64,000 bases of DNA, taken from positions 372,001-436,000 of the forward strand of contig NZ_JAJBZH010000002.1 in the NCBI RefSeq assembly GCF_020551945.1. The letters are read 5' to 3'. Shown here piece after piece: positions 21,189-30,164 of this stretch. Numbering within the stretch: the first letter of the stretch is position 1; each line of letters begins with the position of its first letter. Position numbers and translations under genes: made by a program. Origin of the DNA: Cellulosimicrobium marinum (GTDB lineage Bacteria; Actinomycetota; Actinomycetes; Actinomycetales; Cellulomonadaceae). The notes below the pieces were generated by a model that was not told where the DNA came from, did no database searches, and saw only the letters and a list, made by a program, of their open reading frames with translations.

Positions 21189-21824
21189 TCAGGGTTCCGT
21201 GGTGCCGTACTCCGGGCGGGAGAACGCGAGCACGACGCCGAGCCCGCCCCGACCGGCCAGGCGCGCCCGGTCCTCGGGGTGGTCGAGCAGGTGCTGCAGC
21301 ACGAGCGCGACGGCGCCCGGGTCGGCCACGACGACGGCGTCCGGCTCCGGGGGCGCGGCCGGCAGCCGGGTCTGCAGGAGGTCGTCGTCGCCGTCCGCGT
21401 GACGGGGGCGGGCGCCGTCGTGCAGCGCGACGCGCAGGACGGGACGGCGCTCGCCCGGCGCGACCTCGACGTGCGCGACGTCCTCCCAGCGCACGACGAC
21501 GCGGCGCACCTCGGGGCCGTCGACCGGCAGCTCGATCTCGTGCGGCCGGAGCACGACGGCGCGGCGGAGCGGTGCGCGGACGTAGACGACCGCCCCGGAG
21601 CCGAACGCGAGCGCCGTGACGCCGGCGAGGAGCGCGACGACGCCCTCGTCGGCGCGCAGCCCCCACACGCCCGCCCACACCGCCCCGCCCGTGCAGGCGA
21701 GCAGGATCAGCAGGACGGAGAGGAAGTCGAGGACGGGGGTCAGGCGCTCGCGGCCGCGGACGCCGCCGTGGACGCGCGCCCAGACCATGGAGGGGCGGTG
21801 GGCGGGTCGCGGACCGGGGGGCAC
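21189..21824 (-). CDS. Small membrane protein with PH-like cytoplasmic part
   Basis: A 211-residue protein with two adjacent membrane helices (LDFLSVLLILLACTGGAVWA and VVALLAGVTALAFGSGAVVY), followed by a soluble domain. That domain (LRRAVVLRPHEIELPVDGPE, then VRWEDVAHVEVAPGERRPVL) resembles the PH-like domains of bacterial two-helix membrane proteins. The start is uncertain: GTG 21822-21824 gives this length, while ATG 21788 would shorten it by 12 residues. Neither has a strong ribosome site. No function is known. Confidence 0.7.
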   Translation of the reverse strand: MPPGPRPAHRPSMVWARVHGGVRGRERLTPVLDFLSVLLILLACTGGAVWAGVWGLRADEGVVALLAGVTALAFGSGAVVYVRAPLRRAVVLRPHEIELPVDGPEVRRVVVRWEDVAHVEVAPGERRPVLRVALHDGARPRHADGDDDLLQTRLPAAPPEPDAVVVADPGAVALVLQHLLDHPEDRARLAGRGGLGVVLAFSRPEYGTTEP

Positions 21825-22328: not shown

Positions 22329-23384
22329 ATGAGCGAGCCGACGACCAGCCCGGTCTCGTCACCGCTGTCCCGCCGTTCCCTGCTGATCGGAGCCGGCGTC
22401 GTCGCCGCCGCACCTGCCGCAGCGCTCGTCCTCGGCGCCGGGGGCAGCGTCGCCGCGCCCGCGAACGCCGCCGTCCCGGCCGCCGCCGGCGACGTCCGTC
22501 GCATCACGATGTACGCCGAGCGCATCGACGCGAGGACCGTCGGCTACGGGCTGGAGCCCGGCAAGGCGACCGTCCCCGGCCCCGTCCTCGAGATGTGGGA
22601 GGGCGAGACGCTCGAGATCACGCTCGTCAACACCACGGACCAGCGCCTGTCCATCCACCCGCACGGCGTCAACTACGACGTCAACAGCGACGGCAGCCCC
22701 TTCAACGACTCGTTCAACGAGCCCGGGGAGACGCGCACCTACATCTGGTCGACCACGAAGATGAAGCGCGACCGCGGCATCTGGATGCCCGGCAGCGCCG
22801 GGTACTGGCACTACCACGACCACGCGTGGGGCGAGCACGGCACGCCCGGCATCGCGGCGGGCCTGTACGGCGCGCTCGTCGTGCGCCGCGTCGGCGACGT
22901 GCTGCCGCAGAAGCAGTTCACCGTCGTGTTCAACGACATGCTCATCAACAACAAGGCCGCGCCCGACACCCCGATGTTCGAGGCGAAGCTGGGCGAGCGG
23001 GTCGAGTTCATCTGCATCGGCCACGGCAACACGTTCCACACGTTCCACCTCCACGCCCACCGGTGGGCGAACAACCGCACGGGCCTGCTCGACGGCGAGT
23101 TCGACGTGAGCCAGGTGGTGGACAACCGCGACCTCAACCCGGGCGACTCGTTCGGGTTCCAGGTCGTCGCGGGCCTCGGCGTCGGGCCGGGTGCGTGGAT
23201 GTACCACTGCCACGTCCAGTTCCACGCCGACGGCGGGATGGCGGGCATCTTCCTCGTCCGCAACGCCGACGGCAGCATGCCGCCCGGCGCGCAGGCGTCG
23301 ATCGACCGGTTCAAGGGCCACGCGCACACGACGTCCACCGAGCAGCCCGCGGCGTCCGACACCGCGGGACACGCCGGGCACTGA
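22329..23384 (+). CDS. Two-domain multicopper oxidase (small laccase type)
   Basis: A 351-residue exported copper oxidase that reduces oxygen to water while taking electrons from phenols or a partner protein. ATG 22329 follows GGAAGGAGTCCC. The N-terminus has a twin-arginine signal (SRRSLLIGAGVVAAAPAAAL), suiting export of a folded copper protein. All copper motifs are present: IHPHGVNYD, WHYHDHAWG, HTFHLHAH and YHCHVQFHADGGM. The length and two cupredoxin domains match the trimeric small laccases of Streptomyces. The C-terminal tail is histidine-rich (GHAHTTS, AGHAGH). It is the first of three consecutive exported redox genes. Confidence 0.93.
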   Translation: MSEPTTSPVSSPLSRRSLLIGAGVVAAAPAAALVLGAGGSVAAPANAAVPAAAGDVRRITMYAERIDARTVGYGLEPGKATVPGPVLEMWEGETLEITLVNTTDQRLSIHPHGVNYDVNSDGSPFNDSFNEPGETRTYIWSTTKMKRDRGIWMPGSAGYWHYHDHAWGEHGTPGIAAGLYGALVVRRVGDVLPQKQFTVVFNDMLINNKAAPDTPMFEAKLGERVEFICIGHGNTFHTFHLHAHRWANNRTGLLDGEFDVSQVVDNRDLNPGDSFGFQVVAGLGVGPGAWMYHCHVQFHADGGMAGIFLVRNADGSMPPGAQASIDRFKGHAHTTSTEQPAASDTAGHAGH

Positions 23385-23457
23385 GGCCCCACGACCACCT
23401 CGTTCCGCGCCCGGGCACCGTCCGGGCGTGCCGCACCGATGACGAAGGAGTTGGAGA

Positions 23458-26400
23458 GTGCTGTCCAGACGAGCTCTGACCACGAGAAGAGGGCGCTCCC
23501 GACCGGGAGCGCTGACGACGATGGCCGTGGGGCTGACGGGCGCCGCGCTCGTCGTCGGCACGGCCGTCGTCCCGGCCACCGCCCAGCCCGCGCCCGCCGC
23601 GTCGACACCGCTCACGACGGCGCCGCTCGCCGCCGCGACCGGGGCGAAGGACGCGCGCGTGCTGGTGTTCCACGGCGCGCCCGACGAGCAGACCGACCCG
23701 GTCGTCGACGCCACCGCCGCCCTGCGTGAGCTCGGCGCGGCCAACGGGTTCGACGTCGAGGCGTCGTCCGACCCCGCGGTGTTCAGCGAGGCGTCGCTGG
23801 GCGACTACCGGGGTGTCGTCATGCTGTCCGCCGAGGGCATCGAGCTCGGCGCCGCGCAGGAGGCGGCGCTGAAGGACTACGTCAACGACGGCGGTGGGTT
23901 CCTGGGCGTGCGCGACGCCGCGCGTGCCCAGGAGACGTCGCAGTGGTTCGGGGGCCTGGTGGGCGCCCGGATCGCGGGGGCGACGCGGGTCGCGGAGCCG
24001 GTGGCGGAGGCGACCGGCACCGGGCGTAGCCCGTCGGCCGAGACCCCGCCCATGGCCGTCGACGGCGACCCGGGCACGAAGTGGCTGACGTTCGCCCGCA
24101 CGGGGACGCTCACGCTGCGCATGGAGGAGCCGGTCGCGCTCGTCGAGTACAGCCTGACGTCGGCGAACGACTCCCCGGGGCGCGACCCGAGGAACTGGAC
24201 GATCCAGGGCTCGAACGACGGCGAGACGTGGACCGACGTCGACGCGCGCACCGACCAGACGTTCTCGCAGCGCTTCCAGCCGCGCACGTTCGAGGTCGGC
24301 AGCACGACGGAGTACGGCTGGTACCGCCTCGTCGTCTCCGCGAACTCGGGCGACGCCGAGGTCCAGCTCGCCGAGCTCTCCCTGTTCGGCCCGGACTCCG
24401 TCGAGCAGCCCGACCCGGAGATCCCGCTCGAGGAGCGGACGGTCGACGTGGTCGACCGCCAGCACCCGGCGTCGGCGGACCTGCCGCTCACGTGGGACCG
24501 CGAGGACCGGTGGCTCGACTGGGCCGACGACCCCGCGGGCGACGTGCACACGGTCGCGACGCTCGAGCCCGGCCCGGACGCCGGCCCGACGACATCGCCG
24601 TTCCAGCCGGTGTCGTGGTGCCGTGACTACGACGGCGGCCGCTCGTTCTACACCGGCATGGGCGGCACCGAGGAGAGCTGGGCGGACCCGACGTTCCGCG
24701 AGCACCTCCTCGGGGCGCTGCAGTGGACGACCGGCGTGGTGCGCGGCGACTGCCAGGCCACCATCGCGTCGAACTACACCGCGGAGCGCCTGTCGGCGGT
24801 CAACACGCAGGGACAGCTCGACCAGAACGGCGAGCCGCACGGCCTGACGATCGCGCCCGACGGCACGGTCTTCTACATCGGTCGCGGCGCGTGCGCCACG
24901 GGCCCGATCCCGTCGTGGGACGACCCCGACGTGGGCCTGGGCTGCGGCACGATCCACCAGTGGGACCCGGAGACGGGTGACGTCACGCTCCTCACGACGC
25001 TCGACGTCATGGGCAACCGCGGCAGCGGCTCGGAGCTCGTGAAGAACGAGGAGGGCCTGCTCGGCATCGTGCCCGACCCGAACTTCGCGGAGAACCACTG
25101 GCTGTACGCCTACTGGATGCCGCACGAGTCGATCGACACCGAGCGTCGCGTGGGCTACCGCACGGTCTCCCGGTTCACCTACGACCCGGAGGGCCCGAGC
25201 ATCGACCAGAGCACGCGCGTCGACCTGCTCGAGTGGGAGACGCAGATCCACAGCTGCTGCCACGCGGGCGGCGGCATGGCGTTCGACGACGAGGGCAACC
25301 TCTACATCGGCTCCGGCGACAGCAACTCGTCCGGCGGCTCGAACGGGTACTCCGGCAACAACTGGACGCAGGAGTACGCGGGCATCTCGTTCCAGGACGC
25401 GCGCCGCACGTCGGGCAACACGAACGACCTCAACGGGAAGATCATCCGGATCCACCCGGAGGACGACGGGACGTACACGATCCCCGAGGGCAACCTGTTC
25501 CCCGAGGGTGAGTACGAGGCCGGCAAGACGCGGCCCGAGATCTACGTGATGGGCGTGCGCAACATCTCGCGCCTGCAGATCGACGCGGACACGGACTGGC
25601 TCACCGCAGGGTGGGTCGGGCCCGACGCCGGGTCGCCGAGCCCCGAGCTCGGCCCGGCGAAGTACGAGACCGCGACGATCATCACGTCCGCGGGCAACCA
25701 GGGGTGGCCCTACTGCATGGGCAACCGTCAGCCGTACCGCGACCGCAGCAACGAGGACGCGAGCGTCCTCACCGACTGGTACGACTGCGACGACCTGAAG
25801 AACACGTCGCCCCGCAACACGGGCCTCGTGGACATCCCGCCGGCGCGCGACAACATGATCTGGTACTCGCCGTCGGGCGGCGGGCCGGTGTTCCCGGACC
25901 GCGGCGACGGCATCCCGACGTACGAGGACGACGAGGCGACCTACACCATCCCGTGGCTGCGGGGCGGTGGCCAGGCCGTCATGTCCGGCCCCACCTACCG
26001 TCAGTCGCAGGTGGACCCGGAGTCCGAGGTCGCATGGCCGTCCTACTGGGAGGGCAAGTGGTTCATCGGTGACCAGTCGAACGCGAACAACCGTGTCGCG
26101 GTGACGGTCGACCCCGAGACCGTGGACGAGGCCGGTGCGCCGGTGTTCATGGAGGACCTGCGTCACATCATCCCGGGCGGTCGCGGCGACGGGCTGCTGC
26201 AGAGCTGGATGGACGCGAAGTTCGGTCCCGACGGCGCGCTGTACCTGCTCGACTACGCGGGCGGCTTCTTCAGCCTCGACCCGAACCAGAAGCTCATGCG
26301 GATCACGTACCAGGGCGGCGCCCCGACGCCCGCCCCGGCCGCGACCGCGACGAGCATCCAGGGCGACCCGCTCGCCGTGCAGTTCACGGGCGAGCGCTCC

Positions 26401-27441
26401 GGCGGCGTCTCCTACCTGTGGGAGTTCGGCGACGGCGCGACGTCCCGGCAGGCCAACCCGGTCCACCGGTACCCGCGCGTCAAGTCGTACGAGGCGACGC
26501 TGACCGTCACGTACGCGGACGGCTCGAAGGCGACGGTCACGGTCGACGGCTCGCCGACCTGCACGCTGCCCGACGAGCGCGACACCGTGTTCTTCGGCGA
26601 CGTGGACTCGCGGGTCGAGAACCTCGACCTCGGGGCCTGCACGATGAACGACCTGTTCCAGGACGAGAAGGAGTGGCGCACGCACGCGCGGTTCCTGTCC
26701 CACGTGACCTCGGTCGCGACGGGTCTGTACAACGACAGCCGGATCGACGAGCGCGAGCGTGAGCGGCTGATCGACGCCGCGGCGCGGTCGCAGATCGGCG
26801 TGGACCCGGGCGGGTACCGCACGATCTTCGACGGCACCGAGGACTCGCTGTACGACTGGTTCCAGGCACCCGGGGGCGAGTTCACCCTCGAGCCTGGCGG
26901 GTCGCTGCGGTCGAAGGGCGGGCTCGGGATGCTCTGGTACGCGGGCGAGGAGCTCGGGGACTTCTCCGTGAAGCTGCTCTACCGCGACGTGTCGCCGGGC
27001 ACCCACCACGCCAACAGCGGCGTGTTCACCCGGTTCCCCGACCCGGAGGACCCGGGCGACCACGAGTGCGCCGAGGGCCAGTCCCCGGCGTGGGTCGCGA
27101 TCTCGTGCGGGCACGAGATCCAGATCTACGACGGCCCCACGGGCGAGCCGCAGAAGACGGGCTCCGTCTACAACTTCGACCCGCTCGGCCTGAACACGGG
27201 TGGCGAGAAGCCCAAGGGGGAGTGGAACGAGTACGAGATCCGCGTCGTGGGTCAGCAGTACACGATCATCCGCAACGGCGTCGTGATCAACGAGTGGGAG
27301 AACGCGCCCGGCCAGGAGTCGTCGCGCGCGGGCGACCCGCCGACCGACCTGCGCCAGTTCGACAGCGGGTTCATCGGGCTGCAGAACCACGGGAACTCGG
27401 ACCTCATCGAGTTCCGCGACATCCGGGTGGCCGACCTCTAG
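23458..27441 (+). CDS. Secreted ThuA / discoidin / sorbosone dehydrogenase / PKD / DUF1080 fusion
   Basis: A 1,327-residue exported enzyme. GTG 23458 follows AAGGAGTTGGAGA. The order is: signal peptide (to about 45); ThuA domain (about 62-180 and 325-428) interrupted by a discoidin F5/8C domain (about 185-311, NWTIQGSNDGETWTDVDART); glucose/sorbosone dehydrogenase propeller (about 438-954, EEGLLGIVPDPNFAENHWLY and HAGGGMAFDDEGNLYIGSGD); PKD domain (about 965-1033, YLWEFGDGATSRQANPVHRY); an 80-residue cysteine-bearing module (1035-1115); and DUF1080 (about 1120-1327, GTHHANSGVFTRFPDPEDPG). ThuA and DUF1080 both occur in keto-glycoside breakdown, and the propeller family oxidises sugars, often with PQQ. 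The combined activity is inferred, not shown. Confidence 0.9.
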   Translation: MLSRRALTTRRGRSRPGALTTMAVGLTGAALVVGTAVVPATAQPAPAASTPLTTAPLAAATGAKDARVLVFHGAPDEQTDPVVDATAALRELGAANGFDVEASSDPAVFSEASLGDYRGVVMLSAEGIELGAAQEAALKDYVNDGGGFLGVRDAARAQETSQWFGGLVGARIAGATRVAEPVAEATGTGRSPSAETPPMAVDGDPGTKWLTFARTGTLTLRMEEPVALVEYSLTSANDSPGRDPRNWTIQGSNDGETWTDVDARTDQTFSQRFQPRTFEVGSTTEYGWYRLVVSANSGDAEVQLAELSLFGPDSVEQPDPEIPLEERTVDVVDRQHPASADLPLTWDREDRWLDWADDPAGDVHTVATLEPGPDAGPTTSPFQPVSWCRDYDGGRSFYTGMGGTEESWADPTFREHLLGALQWTTGVVRGDCQATIASNYTAERLSAVNTQGQLDQNGEPHGLTIAPDGTVFYIGRGACATGPIPSWDDPDVGLGCGTIHQWDPETGDVTLLTTLDVMGNRGSGSELVKNEEGLLGIVPDPNFAENHWLYAYWMPHESIDTERRVGYRTVSRFTYDPEGPSIDQSTRVDLLEWETQIHSCCHAGGGMAFDDEGNLYIGSGDSNSSGGSNGYSGNNWTQEYAGISFQDARRTSGNTNDLNGKIIRIHPEDDGTYTIPEGNLFPEGEYEAGKTRPEIYVMGVRNISRLQIDADTDWLTAGWVGPDAGSPSPELGPAKYETATIITSAGNQGWPYCMGNRQPYRDRSNEDASVLTDWYDCDDLKNTSPRNTGLVDIPPARDNMIWYSPSGGGPVFPDRGDGIPTYEDDEATYTIPWLRGGGQAVMSGPTYRQSQVDPESEVAWPSYWEGKWFIGDQSNANNRVAVTVDPETVDEAGAPVFMEDLRHIIPGGRGDGLLQSWMDAKFGPDGALYLLDYAGGFFSLDPNQKLMRITYQGGAPTPAPAATATSIQGDPLAVQFTGERSGGVSYLWEFGDGATSRQANPVHRYPRVKSYEATLTVTYADGSKATVTVDGSPTCTLPDERDTVFFGDVDSRVENLDLGACTMNDLFQDEKEWRTHARFLSHVTSVATGLYNDSRIDERERERLIDAAARSQIGVDPGGYRTIFDGTEDSLYDWFQAPGGEFTLEPGGSLRSKGGLGMLWYAGEELGDFSVKLLYRDVSPGTHHANSGVFTRFPDPEDPGDHECAEGQSPAWVAISCGHEIQIYDGPTGEPQKTGSVYNFDPLGLNTGGEKPKGEWNEYEIRVVGQQYTIIRNGVVINEWENAPGQESSRAGDPPTDLRQFDSGFIGLQNHGNSDLIEFRDIRVADL

Positions 27442-27454
27442 CCACCGCACCGGC

Positions 27455-27486
27455 CCGGCGGGGGCGACGCACGTCGCCCCCGCCGG
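27455..27486 (+). terminator. Perfect 14-bp hairpin after the dehydrogenase fusion
   Basis: CCGGCGGGGGCGAC (27455-27468) pairs with 27473-27486 across a 4-base loop, 13 bases after the stop codon. It could attenuate transcription into the cupredoxin gene; there is no T-tract. Confidence 0.7.
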
Positions 27487-27585
27487 ACCGGCCCCGCCGC
27501 GTCGCGCGGCACCCCCGGCGGGCACCGCCCGCACCCCTAGACCGTCACCGCACGATCCCTGCACATCGACGAGGAGTGCACACCC

Positions 27586-30054
27586 ATGGAACGACGAACC
27601 GGCCCGGGCGACGCCCGACGCCACCGCGCCCGGCGCCTCACGGCCGCCGTGGTCGCGGGACTCACCGCCGCGACGGTCGTCTCCGTCGCCCCCGCGACGG
27701 CGACGACGCCGACCGCCCCCGCGGCCGCCGTCGGGCAGCCCGCGGCCCCCGCCGCCCAGGTCGCCGCGGAACAGGTGCTCACCTGGACCGCCGACAACAG
27801 CGTCAGCGACTACCTGGAGTTCCCCGCGACGGCGACCGCCGGCCCGGCGACGATCGTGTTCGAAACGTCGCTCGCGACGGGGAACACGTTCGGCATGAGC
27901 CACACGCTGACGTTCGACACGTCCACGCCGGGCTACAACCACGACGTCGACCTCAACATCCTCGCCAGCCCGTTCGACGCGAACGGCGGGCTGCACGAGG
28001 CCGAGGTCGTCCTCACGCCCGGCACGTACCGCTACTTCTGCGCCATCCCCGGCCACGGGGAGATGTGGGGCGAGCTCGTCGTCACCGACGACGGCGGCGG
28101 CGAGGACACCACCGCGCCGTCGGTCACCGCGCAGGTGACGGGCGAGCAGGACGACGACGGCGCGTACGTGGGCGGCGCGACCGTCACCCTCGCCGCGACG
28201 GACGACGGCTCCGGCGTCGCGGGCGTCGAGTACGACCTCGACGGCGCGGGCTGGACGGCGTACGACGAGCCGTTCGTCGTCGACGCCGTGGGCGAGCACT
28301 CGCTGCAGTTCCGCGCGACCGACCAGGCGGGCAACACGTCCGAGCCGCAGACCGCGACGTTCACCGTGGTCGAGGGCGACGTCGTCGAGGACACCACCGC
28401 CCCCGTCGTCGAGCCGATGGTCATGGGCGAGCAGGACGAGGACGGCGCCTACGTCGGCACCGCCGCGTTCATGCTGCACGCGCACGACGAGGAGGGCGGC
28501 TCCGGGGTCGCGTCCGTCGAGTACCAGGTGGGCGACCAGTGGCTCCCGTACACGACGACCGTGCCGTTCACCGAGCCGGGTGAGCACACCGTCTCCTACC
28601 GCGCGACGGACAACGCGGGCAACGTGTCCGAGGTCGGCTCCGTGACGTTCACCGTCGTGGAGGACGGCGAGGACGACACCACCGCGCCGACCGTGACCGC
28701 CGAGGTCAGCGGCACCCAGGACGAGAACGGCGCGTTCGTGGGCTCCGCCACCGCGACCCTCACCGCGACCGACGACGCGTCCGGCGTCGAGTCCGTCGAG
28801 TACGACCTCGACGGCGCCGGCTGGACCGGGTACACCGGGCCCGTCGTGGTCGACGAGCCCGGCGAGCACACGCTCGTCTACCGGGCCACCGACGCCGCGG
28901 GCAACGTCTCCGAGGAGACCGTCACCACGTTCACCGTGGTCGAGGAGGACACCGGCGACACCACCGCACCGACGGTCGGCACCGAGATCAGCGGCACCCA
29001 GGACGAGGACGGCGCCTACGTCGGCTCCGCGTCCGTCATGGTCACCGCGACCGACGACGGATCCGGCGTCGCGTCCGTCGAGTACGACCTCGACGGGGCC
29101 GGCTGGACCGAGTACACCGAGGCCGTCGTCGTCGACGAGCCCGGCCGGCACACCCTCGCGTACCGCGCGACCGACGAGGCGGGCAACGTCTCCGAGGCCG
29201 CGACCGTCACGTTCGACGTCGTCGAGGCCGACGGGAGCGACGTCGTCGCCCCCGACGTCCAGCACCGCGTCTACGGGCAGCGCAACGACGCGGGCGAGTA
29301 CCTCGGCCCGGCGTTCCTGCGGCTGCGCGCGACCGACGCCGACTCCGGTGTCGCGTCGGTCGAGTACCAGGTCGACGGCGGCGAGTGGACCGCGTACGCG
29401 GGGCAGATCACGCTGCGCAGCCCCGGTGCGCACACCGTGACCTACCGGGCGACCGACGTCGCCGGGAACGTGTCCGCACCGGTGAGCGTCGTCGTCGTGC
29501 TCGAGGGCGGCGAGACCGGCGACACCGAGGGCCCCGAGGTCACCGCGGGGGTCGGCGGCAGCCGGACGCGCGACGGCGAGTACGTCACCCGCGCGACCGT
29601 CACCCTGACGGCCGTCGACGAGGAGTCCGGCGTCGACCGCACGGAGTTCCAGGTCGACGACGGCACGTGGCAGCGCTACGCCGCCCCGTTCGTCATCGCG
29701 GCCGACGGCGAGCACGTGGTGCGCTACCGCGCCGTCGACGGCGCGGGCAACGTGTCGCAGACCGGCGAGGTGACCTTCACGGTCCTCGAGCTGCGCCGCG
29801 ACCGCTGCCCGGGCTCCGACGTGCGACCCACCGTGGTCATCGACGGCCACGACAGCACCGTCGAGAACTTCGACGACGGCGAGGGCTGCACCGTCAACGA
29901 CCACATCGCCGAGGACGACGAGTACTTCACGCACCGCGAGTTCGTGGACCACGTGAGCCTCGTCACCGAGGACCTCGTGTGGGACGGCGTGCTCGTCGAG
30001 TCCGAGCGCGAGCTCATCATCACCGCGGCGGAGCTGTCGGACATCGGTCGCTGA
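27586..30054 (+). CDS. Secreted cupredoxin with six Ig-like (OmpL47-type) repeats
   Basis: An 822-residue exported protein beginning ATG 27586. After the signal peptide (to about residue 40) comes a plastocyanin-like domain (about 64-167). Its type 1 copper ligands are visible as His in FGMSHTLTF and Cys-His-Met in YFCAIPGHGEMWG. Six repeats of about 92 residues follow (about 172-738), each starting D-T-T-A-P and ending Y-R-A-T-D-x-A-G-N-V-S, the pattern of OmpL47-type or bacterial Ig-like domains. The last 80 residues (740-822: GCTVNDHIAEDDEYFTHREF, then SERELIITAAELSDIG) match the module inside the preceding dehydrogenase fusion. The repeats likely form a stalk. A role as electron carrier to the laccase is inference from gene order. 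Confidence 0.88.
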   Translation: MERRTGPGDARRHRARRLTAAVVAGLTAATVVSVAPATATTPTAPAAAVGQPAAPAAQVAAEQVLTWTADNSVSDYLEFPATATAGPATIVFETSLATGNTFGMSHTLTFDTSTPGYNHDVDLNILASPFDANGGLHEAEVVLTPGTYRYFCAIPGHGEMWGELVVTDDGGGEDTTAPSVTAQVTGEQDDDGAYVGGATVTLAATDDGSGVAGVEYDLDGAGWTAYDEPFVVDAVGEHSLQFRATDQAGNTSEPQTATFTVVEGDVVEDTTAPVVEPMVMGEQDEDGAYVGTAAFMLHAHDEEGGSGVASVEYQVGDQWLPYTTTVPFTEPGEHTVSYRATDNAGNVSEVGSVTFTVVEDGEDDTTAPTVTAEVSGTQDENGAFVGSATATLTATDDASGVESVEYDLDGAGWTGYTGPVVVDEPGEHTLVYRATDAAGNVSEETVTTFTVVEEDTGDTTAPTVGTEISGTQDEDGAYVGSASVMVTATDDGSGVASVEYDLDGAGWTEYTEAVVVDEPGRHTLAYRATDEAGNVSEAATVTFDVVEADGSDVVAPDVQHRVYGQRNDAGEYLGPAFLRLRATDADSGVASVEYQVDGGEWTAYAGQITLRSPGAHTVTYRATDVAGNVSAPVSVVVVLEGGETGDTEGPEVTAGVGGSRTRDGEYVTRATVTLTAVDEESGVDRTEFQVDDGTWQRYAAPFVIAADGEHVVRYRAVDGAGNVSQTGEVTFTVLELRRDRCPGSDVRPTVVIDGHDSTVENFDDGEGCTVNDHIAEDDEYFTHREFVDHVSLVTEDLVWDGVLVESERELIITAAELSDIGR

Positions 30055-30069
30055 CACCCGCCTCCCGCC

Positions 30070-30122
30070 GAGCACGAGGTTGATGTCGTCCTGAGCTCGA
30101 TGACGACATCAACCTCGTGCTC
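30070..30122. terminator. Perfect 21-bp hairpin, family H1 copy d
   Basis: Arms 30070-30090 and 30102-30122 pair perfectly around 11 bases. It directly follows the cupredoxin gene and is the likely end of the three-gene redox locus. The core CACGAGGTTGATGTCGTC is that of the H1 family. Confidence 0.8.
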
Positions 30123-30164
30123 GTCTGCGACCAGGCTCGTGGTCGGCCGACGGGTCGAGACGCC

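Follow-up and report, generated by a model that had tools for sequence, protein, structure and literature searches.

The 64,000-nt stretch of the Cellulosimicrobium marinum genome analysed here (assembly GCF_020551945.1, contig NZ_JAJBZH010000002.1, positions 372,001 to 436,000 of the forward strand; hereafter the window) carries three consecutive plus-strand open reading frames (ORFs) at 22329-30054, which encode a small laccase, a large exported fusion protein built around a quinoprotein-type propeller, and an exported cupredoxin protein. Judged by its sequence, the laccase is an orthologue of SLAC from Streptomyces coelicolor. This relationship gives the locus its chief interest and was not noticed in the earlier, sequence-only reading of this DNA. 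The three genes lie next to each other in several actinomycete families, and their co-occurrence can be followed within the genus Streptomyces. The explanation we favor, with somewhat better than even confidence, is that the proteins would form an exported chain that carries electrons from a sugar dehydrogenase by way of the cupredoxin and the small laccase to oxygen, with cleavage of the keto sugar coupled to it.

Each of the three start codons is preceded by a ribosome-binding-like purine stretch. The laccase gene (22329..23384) encodes 351 residues beginning with a twin-arginine signal, SRRSLL, and is followed by the GTG-initiated fusion gene (23458..27441; 1,327 residues). Within the fusion, Pfam recovered a ThuA domain in two stretches (23641..23991 and 24403..24729, the latter residues 316-424; PF06283, 164.9 bits vs a cut-off of 33.4) with an F5/8 type C (discoidin) domain inserted between them (23995..24393), a glucose/sorbosone dehydrogenase-type (GSDH) propeller (24745..26313), a PKD domain (26329..26538) and a 3-keto-disaccharide hydrolase (DUF1080) domain (26800..27438; PF06439, 102.8 vs 26.8 bits) that also has relatives in the PDB. 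All five domain types exceeded their gathering scores, and they stand in the order first described. A module shared with the third protein lies between the PKD and hydrolase domains (26545..26793). The third gene (27586..30054; 822 residues) encodes a cupredoxin domain (27763..28101), six OmpL47-type repeats, which are the six Ig-like repeats of the sequence-only reading, and the second copy of the shared module at the C terminus (29767..30051). The observation of a three-gene set with these products is thus confirmed by the ORF list and by Pfam and NCBIfam domains.

Pfam assigned Cu-oxidase_2 and Cu-oxidase_3 to the window laccase, and its best PDB matches were two-domain small laccases (3t9w, E 7e-127; 3cg8, E 8e-109), a type to which 50 of the 60 top-ranked PDB sequences listed belonged. 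The two cupredoxin domains of the laccase hold all 12 positions for type 1, type 2 and type 3 copper ligands, which bears out the description of a twin-arginine two-domain laccase with every copper motif. Ligands were likewise complete in 140 of 146 laccase ORFs, from a set that includes a few loci fetched twice, as do those behind the cupredoxin and propeller residue counts and the domain placements given below. Second laccases of tandem pairs showed losses: L046:4209-5795 and L070:5638-7131 lack the type 1 Cys and two type 3 His among others, and the type 1 His is Tyr in L047:1055-2431, L048:7110-8471, L049:6929-8170 and L069:5698-7299. These ligand-deficient copies have C-terminal extensions and may be partner subunits or pseudoenzymes.

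The sequence-only reading had named a lack of joint conservation of its three genes in other genomes as one of two outcomes that would refute it, and the survey made here did not refute it. In 246 genomes drawn over the class, searched with cut-offs (1e-235, 1e-12 and 1e-90) chosen after seeing wide gaps to the next matches (5e-116, 2e-4 and 3e-22), a close propeller was found in 38, the cupredoxin in 39 and a close laccase in 39. Both partners were present in all 38 propeller genomes and lay within 5 kb on one contig in 37 of them; in the 38th, G164, a contig end cuts the propeller gene. Another genome, G016, has laccases and a cupredoxin, with its propeller gene broken over contig ends. Seen from the laccase side, 47 of 49 close matches were at most 5 kb from a cupredoxin or propeller gene, the exceptions being G016:C15 and G028:C3, which stand apart from both partners. 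No close match to any of the three genes was found in the 20 other genomes of the window's order in the draw (families f2 to f8). The gene arrangement is far beyond chance, and the partnership is widespread and near-constant wherever the propeller or the cupredoxin occurs.

A contig scan with the laccase alignment confirmed at least 555 relatives, and the best 80 of these, hence the ones nearest to the window, were examined as named loci, in genera that include Cellulosimicrobium, Isoptericola, Oerskovia, Promicromonospora, Georgenia, Micromonospora, Actinoplanes, Amycolatopsis, Saccharomonospora, Kribbella, Jiangella and Rhodococcus. Laccase, propeller, cupredoxin and hydrolase domain were all present in 76 of the 80. 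Among the matches listed, the nearest relatives of the window proteins came from Cellulosimicrobium, Oerskovia and Isoptericola. Of the four incomplete loci, two (L077 and L141) lie at the end of a contig. Saccharomonospora piscinae (L133) has the laccase alone, with the propeller and cupredoxin genes together on another contig, and S. halophila (L142) has laccase and fusion, with no cupredoxin found in its genome. Three loci of family f23 (L048, L049 and, at a contig end, L047) hold a laccase pair beside a cupredoxin gene without propeller or hydrolase, and the full locus is also present elsewhere in two of these three genomes. This arrangement links the laccase and the cupredoxin directly.

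One genome, G476, encodes a laccase 100% identical to the 3cg8 chain over 309 residues. The 3CG8 structure is named as SLAC of S. coelicolor in the available part of PMC9692349, and on the strength of this identity we took genus g30 to be Streptomyces. We inspected 35 Streptomyces loci from two sets (15 and 20, G476 included, the set of 20 hand-picked), and all parts were present in every one, with the laccase gene divergent from the ThuA-propeller gene and the cupredoxin gene following the latter. In S. coelicolor the ThuA-propeller gene is, going by its position, probably SCO6711. Across 295 Streptomyces genomes the laccase was found in 187 and the cupredoxin in 178; 176 had both, 11 only the laccase, 2 only the cupredoxin and 106 neither (Fisher 2e-64, a value that ignores relatedness). 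The two genomes with only the cupredoxin also encode the propeller; their assemblies are drafts in about 800 and 1,100 contigs. The asymmetry, in which the partners almost never occur without the laccase and the laccase is sometimes alone, fits the laccase as the outlet of a chain.

The Streptomyces loci also differ from the others in where the hydrolase domain is carried. In 35 of 35 the C terminus of the cupredoxin protein consists of the shared module followed by the hydrolase domain. Outside Streptomyces, 97 of 98 loci that have a close propeller carry the hydrolase domain on the propeller protein instead; the one exception appears to be L141, cut at its contig end. Because the hydrolase domain switches carrier yet stays within the set, its movement is strong evidence that the propeller protein and the cupredoxin protein act in concert. 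Hitch-hiking without function was rejected as an account of the clustering in view of this change of partner and of the tracked presence and absence of the genes within one genus.

The propeller scored 69.3 against the GSDH profile PF07995 (cut-off 25). An AlphaFold2 model of the domain (mean predicted local distance difference test score 76.7) had soluble glucose dehydrogenase (sGDH) with bound pyrroloquinoline quinone (PQQ) as its top PDB fold match (1c9u, E 5e-19), and it also matched the PQQ-bound aldose dehydrogenase (Adh) of S. coelicolor, 3das; identity to these structural matches is about 15-18%. In sGDH, residues with functional roles include His144, Arg228, Asn229, Gly247-Pro248, Lys377, Arg406 and Arg408. 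Each of 134 propellers scoring above 400 bits (134 of 134) conserves the positions aligned to His144, Arg228-Asn229 and Gly247-Pro248. The same 134 have an invariant Cys-Cys-His (propeller residues 171-173), its His at the catalytic position, where sGDH has Lys-Asp-His. Methanol dehydrogenase carries a vicinal disulfide beside PQQ, and by analogy a vicinal disulfide is possible at the Cys-Cys-His site. The C. marinum genome also encodes a second, more distant ThuA-GSDH-type protein (G000:C13:23567-25489, 42% identity), and the class searches gave no close laccase or cupredoxin match on that contig.

The cupredoxin of the third protein is divergent. The plastocyanin/azurin model PF00127 reached 13.1 bits, under its cut-off of 21.2, and we therefore call the protein a divergent cupredoxin rather than a PF00127 member. 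Plastocyanin, auracyanin and rusticyanin chains in the PDB aligned weakly to the domain (E 0.0075 to 0.03). The four type 1 ligands His, Cys, His and Met are present in the window domain, and they stand in cupredoxin order in 135 of 135 cupredoxins.

The shared module, which the sequence-only reading had also pointed out, is real: its two window copies, of about 80 residues with conserved cysteines, are 40% identical. It gave no convincing Pfam match, and the best hit of a PDB fold search had an E value of 1.0. In the C. marinum genome the only two matches are those of the locus. Genomes of class family f26 (for example G059 and G174) have from at least 3 to at least 20 matches each, many in other large ORFs (lower bounds, as 22 candidates were scored per genome), and the module is also present in a few genomes without the locus, such as G018, G112, G131 and G239. 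These copies ruled out, as a general claim, that it is a locus-specific docking module.

Evidence for a sugar context comes from a subset of loci. In 15 of the 35 Streptomyces loci, G476 included, a gene for a LacI-type regulator is found no more than 2.5 kb from the laccase gene; in S. coelicolor-type genomes it directly follows the laccase gene (L171:6863-7921 in G476). Among three hand-picked loci, that of Halosaccharopolyspora (L114) has upstream an ATP-binding cassette (ABC) ATPase, a sugar-type binding protein, a ThuA-GSDH-CBM6 protein, a xylose-isomerase-like TIM barrel and a Gfo/Idh oxidoreductase; that of Actinoplanes (L135) is flanked by a ThuA-hydrolase protein and two TIM barrels, and that of Amycolatopsis (L137) has two TIM barrels after a ThuA-GSDH gene. 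Clustering of neighbours in 36 chosen loci gave four ORF clusters found in at least 4 genus labels, one of which consists of ABC ATPases of sugar and other types mixed. The gene run upstream of the locus in the Actinoplanes and Amycolatopsis examples (L135:1-4300 and L137:50-4700) appears to resemble an ebo-type cluster.

Taken as a chain, the propeller, with its quinoprotein dehydrogenase fold, would oxidize an extracellular sugar or glycoside, and the cupredoxin would accept the electrons from it one at a time. The small laccase would then take them from the cupredoxin at its type 1 copper and reduce oxygen to water. Processing of the oxidized (keto) sugar would fall to the ThuA domain and the 3-keto-disaccharide hydrolase domain on the same proteins; the available text of PMC9007349 proposes that DUF1080 proteins hydrolyze 3-keto-glycosides, a role backed genetically by lactose use in Caulobacter. 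That the propeller acts as a dehydrogenase and uses PQQ, the direction in which electrons move, the identity of the substrate and the cleavage of a 3-keto product are all parts that we infer. A bolder version, which we hold tentatively and place a little short of even, is that small laccases are not primarily phenol oxidases and that in most actinomycetes having them they serve as the dedicated oxygen-reducing end of an exported, cupredoxin-fed, sugar-oxidizing chain, which would drive an oxidize-then-cleave glycoside route with scavenged PQQ or some other cofactor at the Cys-Cys-His site.

Several findings weigh against the sugar-oxidizing chain, and most of them are also what its competitors draw on. 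Small laccases oxidize phenols in vitro (PMC3918160, in the part available), and a silA mutant is described in the accessible text of PMC5675413 as degrading lignin less well, with a defect in solubilizing it. Furthermore, the 11 laccase-only genomes among the 187 Streptomyces genomes with the laccase have no cupredoxin at E 0.01 and no close propeller, so the laccase can serve alone. These results would also fit a scheme in which the laccase makes quinones and radicals from phenols, the propeller dehydrogenase uses the quinones as acceptors during sugar oxidation, and the cupredoxin is a side carrier in an attack on lignocellulose. We consider this unlikely, since it leaves unexplained both the near-constant presence of the cupredoxin (176 of 187) and its fusion to the hydrolase in every inspected Streptomyces locus. 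As to the sugar itself, no LacI gene was found within 2.5 kb of the laccase in 20 of the 35 Streptomyces loci, and no sugar genes among the eight scanned neighbours of the window locus.

Other counterarguments concern the propeller. Its alignment to sGDH stops near residue 272 and leaves the C-terminal PQQ residues Lys377, Arg406 and Arg408 unmatched; comparison by eye suggested that Arg450 (23 of 24) might stand for Lys377, and the counterparts of Arg406 and Arg408 are not Arg. The non-enzyme HHIP also matches the propeller model (E 4e-15), so the fold alone is no proof of a dehydrogenase. The PQQ biosynthesis marker pqqC (TIGR02111) was found in 4 of the 246 class genomes and 3 of the 38 locus genomes, with no match in the C. 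marinum genome; the 14 control genomes gave no match either, and the 4 class genomes are the sole positives of this search. These features would suit a propeller that is a sugar-binding, lyase or hydrolase domain, in secreted proteins that cleave glycans, with the laccase and the cupredoxin working on the lignin or phenolic fraction of the same material. We regard that account as quite improbable in view of the invariant counterparts of the sGDH catalytic His, Arg-Asn and Gly-Pro and of the PQQ-bound S. coelicolor relative, identified as such by the title of 3das. The rarity of pqqC would instead mean that PQQ is scavenged or that another cofactor is in use. The sugar-oxidizing route proposed in the sequence-only reading is partly supported: its link to sugar is strengthened by the domain swap, the LacI genes and the sugar-type neighbours of a few loci, and its electron path through the copper proteins to oxygen stays hypothetical. 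PQQ as the propeller cofactor is uncertain.

We also considered that the locus might serve mainly in copper handling, with the cupredoxin carrying or storing copper and passing it to the laccase. SCO6710 is a glycosyl hydrolase putatively repressed by CsoR according to the available part of PMC6414726, and the cupredoxin-hydrolase gene of S. coelicolor (L171:11748-14018 in G476) is probably SCO6710, as judged from gene numbering. If right, this identity together with the putative CsoR repression would tie the locus to copper sensing, and the pairing of laccase and cupredoxin without a propeller in the three f23 loci points the same way. No convincing site turned up at the gene starts in a pattern search for operators of the CsoR type. 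The complete type 1 electron-transfer ligand set in all 135 cupredoxins is at odds with a mere copper store, and neither the fusion to a sugar hydrolase nor the linkage to the propeller is explained by it, making this the least credible account, one to which we give very little weight.

The proposed chain can be compared with several described systems. SLAC (SCO6712, PDB 3cg8) and other two-domain laccases share orthology, all copper ligands and, in the window laccase, the twin-arginine signal. SLAC differs in having been described as a phenol oxidase with an unsettled natural role, and the portions of the literature available do not mention the partner genes; roles in morphogenesis, pigment, copper and lignin are offered there as proposals or speculation (PMC5675413, PMC7036934). 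With sGDH (1c9u) and the aldose sugar dehydrogenases (3das, 2ism) the propeller shares the fold and part of the active site, whereas it is set apart by its low identity, its Cys-Cys-His, a fusion architecture that brings in ThuA, the hydrolase and further domains, and the absence of a pqqC match from most of its hosts. The Caulobacter LacABC lactose 3-dehydrogenase and DUF1080 3'-ketolactose hydrolase provide an exported glycoside oxidation followed by a DUF1080-type hydrolase, as proposed there; unlike the locus, LacABC is membrane-bound, and no cupredoxin or laccase is mentioned in the available text (PMC9007349).

Both proposed hand-overs have precedents elsewhere. Methylamine dehydrogenase is a quinoprotein that reduces a cupredoxin, amicyanin, and the cupredoxin pseudoazurin feeds the trimeric two-domain copper enzyme NirK. 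The transfers from quinoprotein to cupredoxin and from cupredoxin to copper enzyme would be the same here, whereas a sugar would serve as the donor and oxygen as the final acceptor, and the organisms that export the proteins are Gram-positive. We found no description of the three-gene association in the open-access literature, a coverage that leaves out most subscription papers, and a term search of the text of a pan-Streptomyces synteny paper (PMC13118837) returned no laccase, ThuA, SCO67, cupredoxin or copper. Quinoprotein, cupredoxin and multicopper protein systems are known in kind from other settings; within the literature searched, the present combination and its connection to SLAC appear to be new.

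Downstream of the last gene, a perfect 22-bp inverted repeat with an 11-nt loop (30069..30123, + strand; arms 30069-30090 and 30102-30123; fold z-score -5.6) accounts for the strong hairpin reported at the end of the set, although it has no T-run. Between positions 21800 and 30500 no terminator-like site, no sigma-70-like promoter and no Rfam family at gathering score was found.

Few bacterial laccases have been studied as much as SLAC and its relatives, yet their natural role is unsettled. The near-constant partnership described here extends to the model organism S. coelicolor. It points to a probable electron donor of SLAC in nature and to sugars as the class of substrate, and it makes the natural role of this enzyme testable with simple means. 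If the proposed chain is true, these actinomycetes would have an exported, copper-based route of glycoside oxidation in which the electrons end in water, without hydrogen peroxide.

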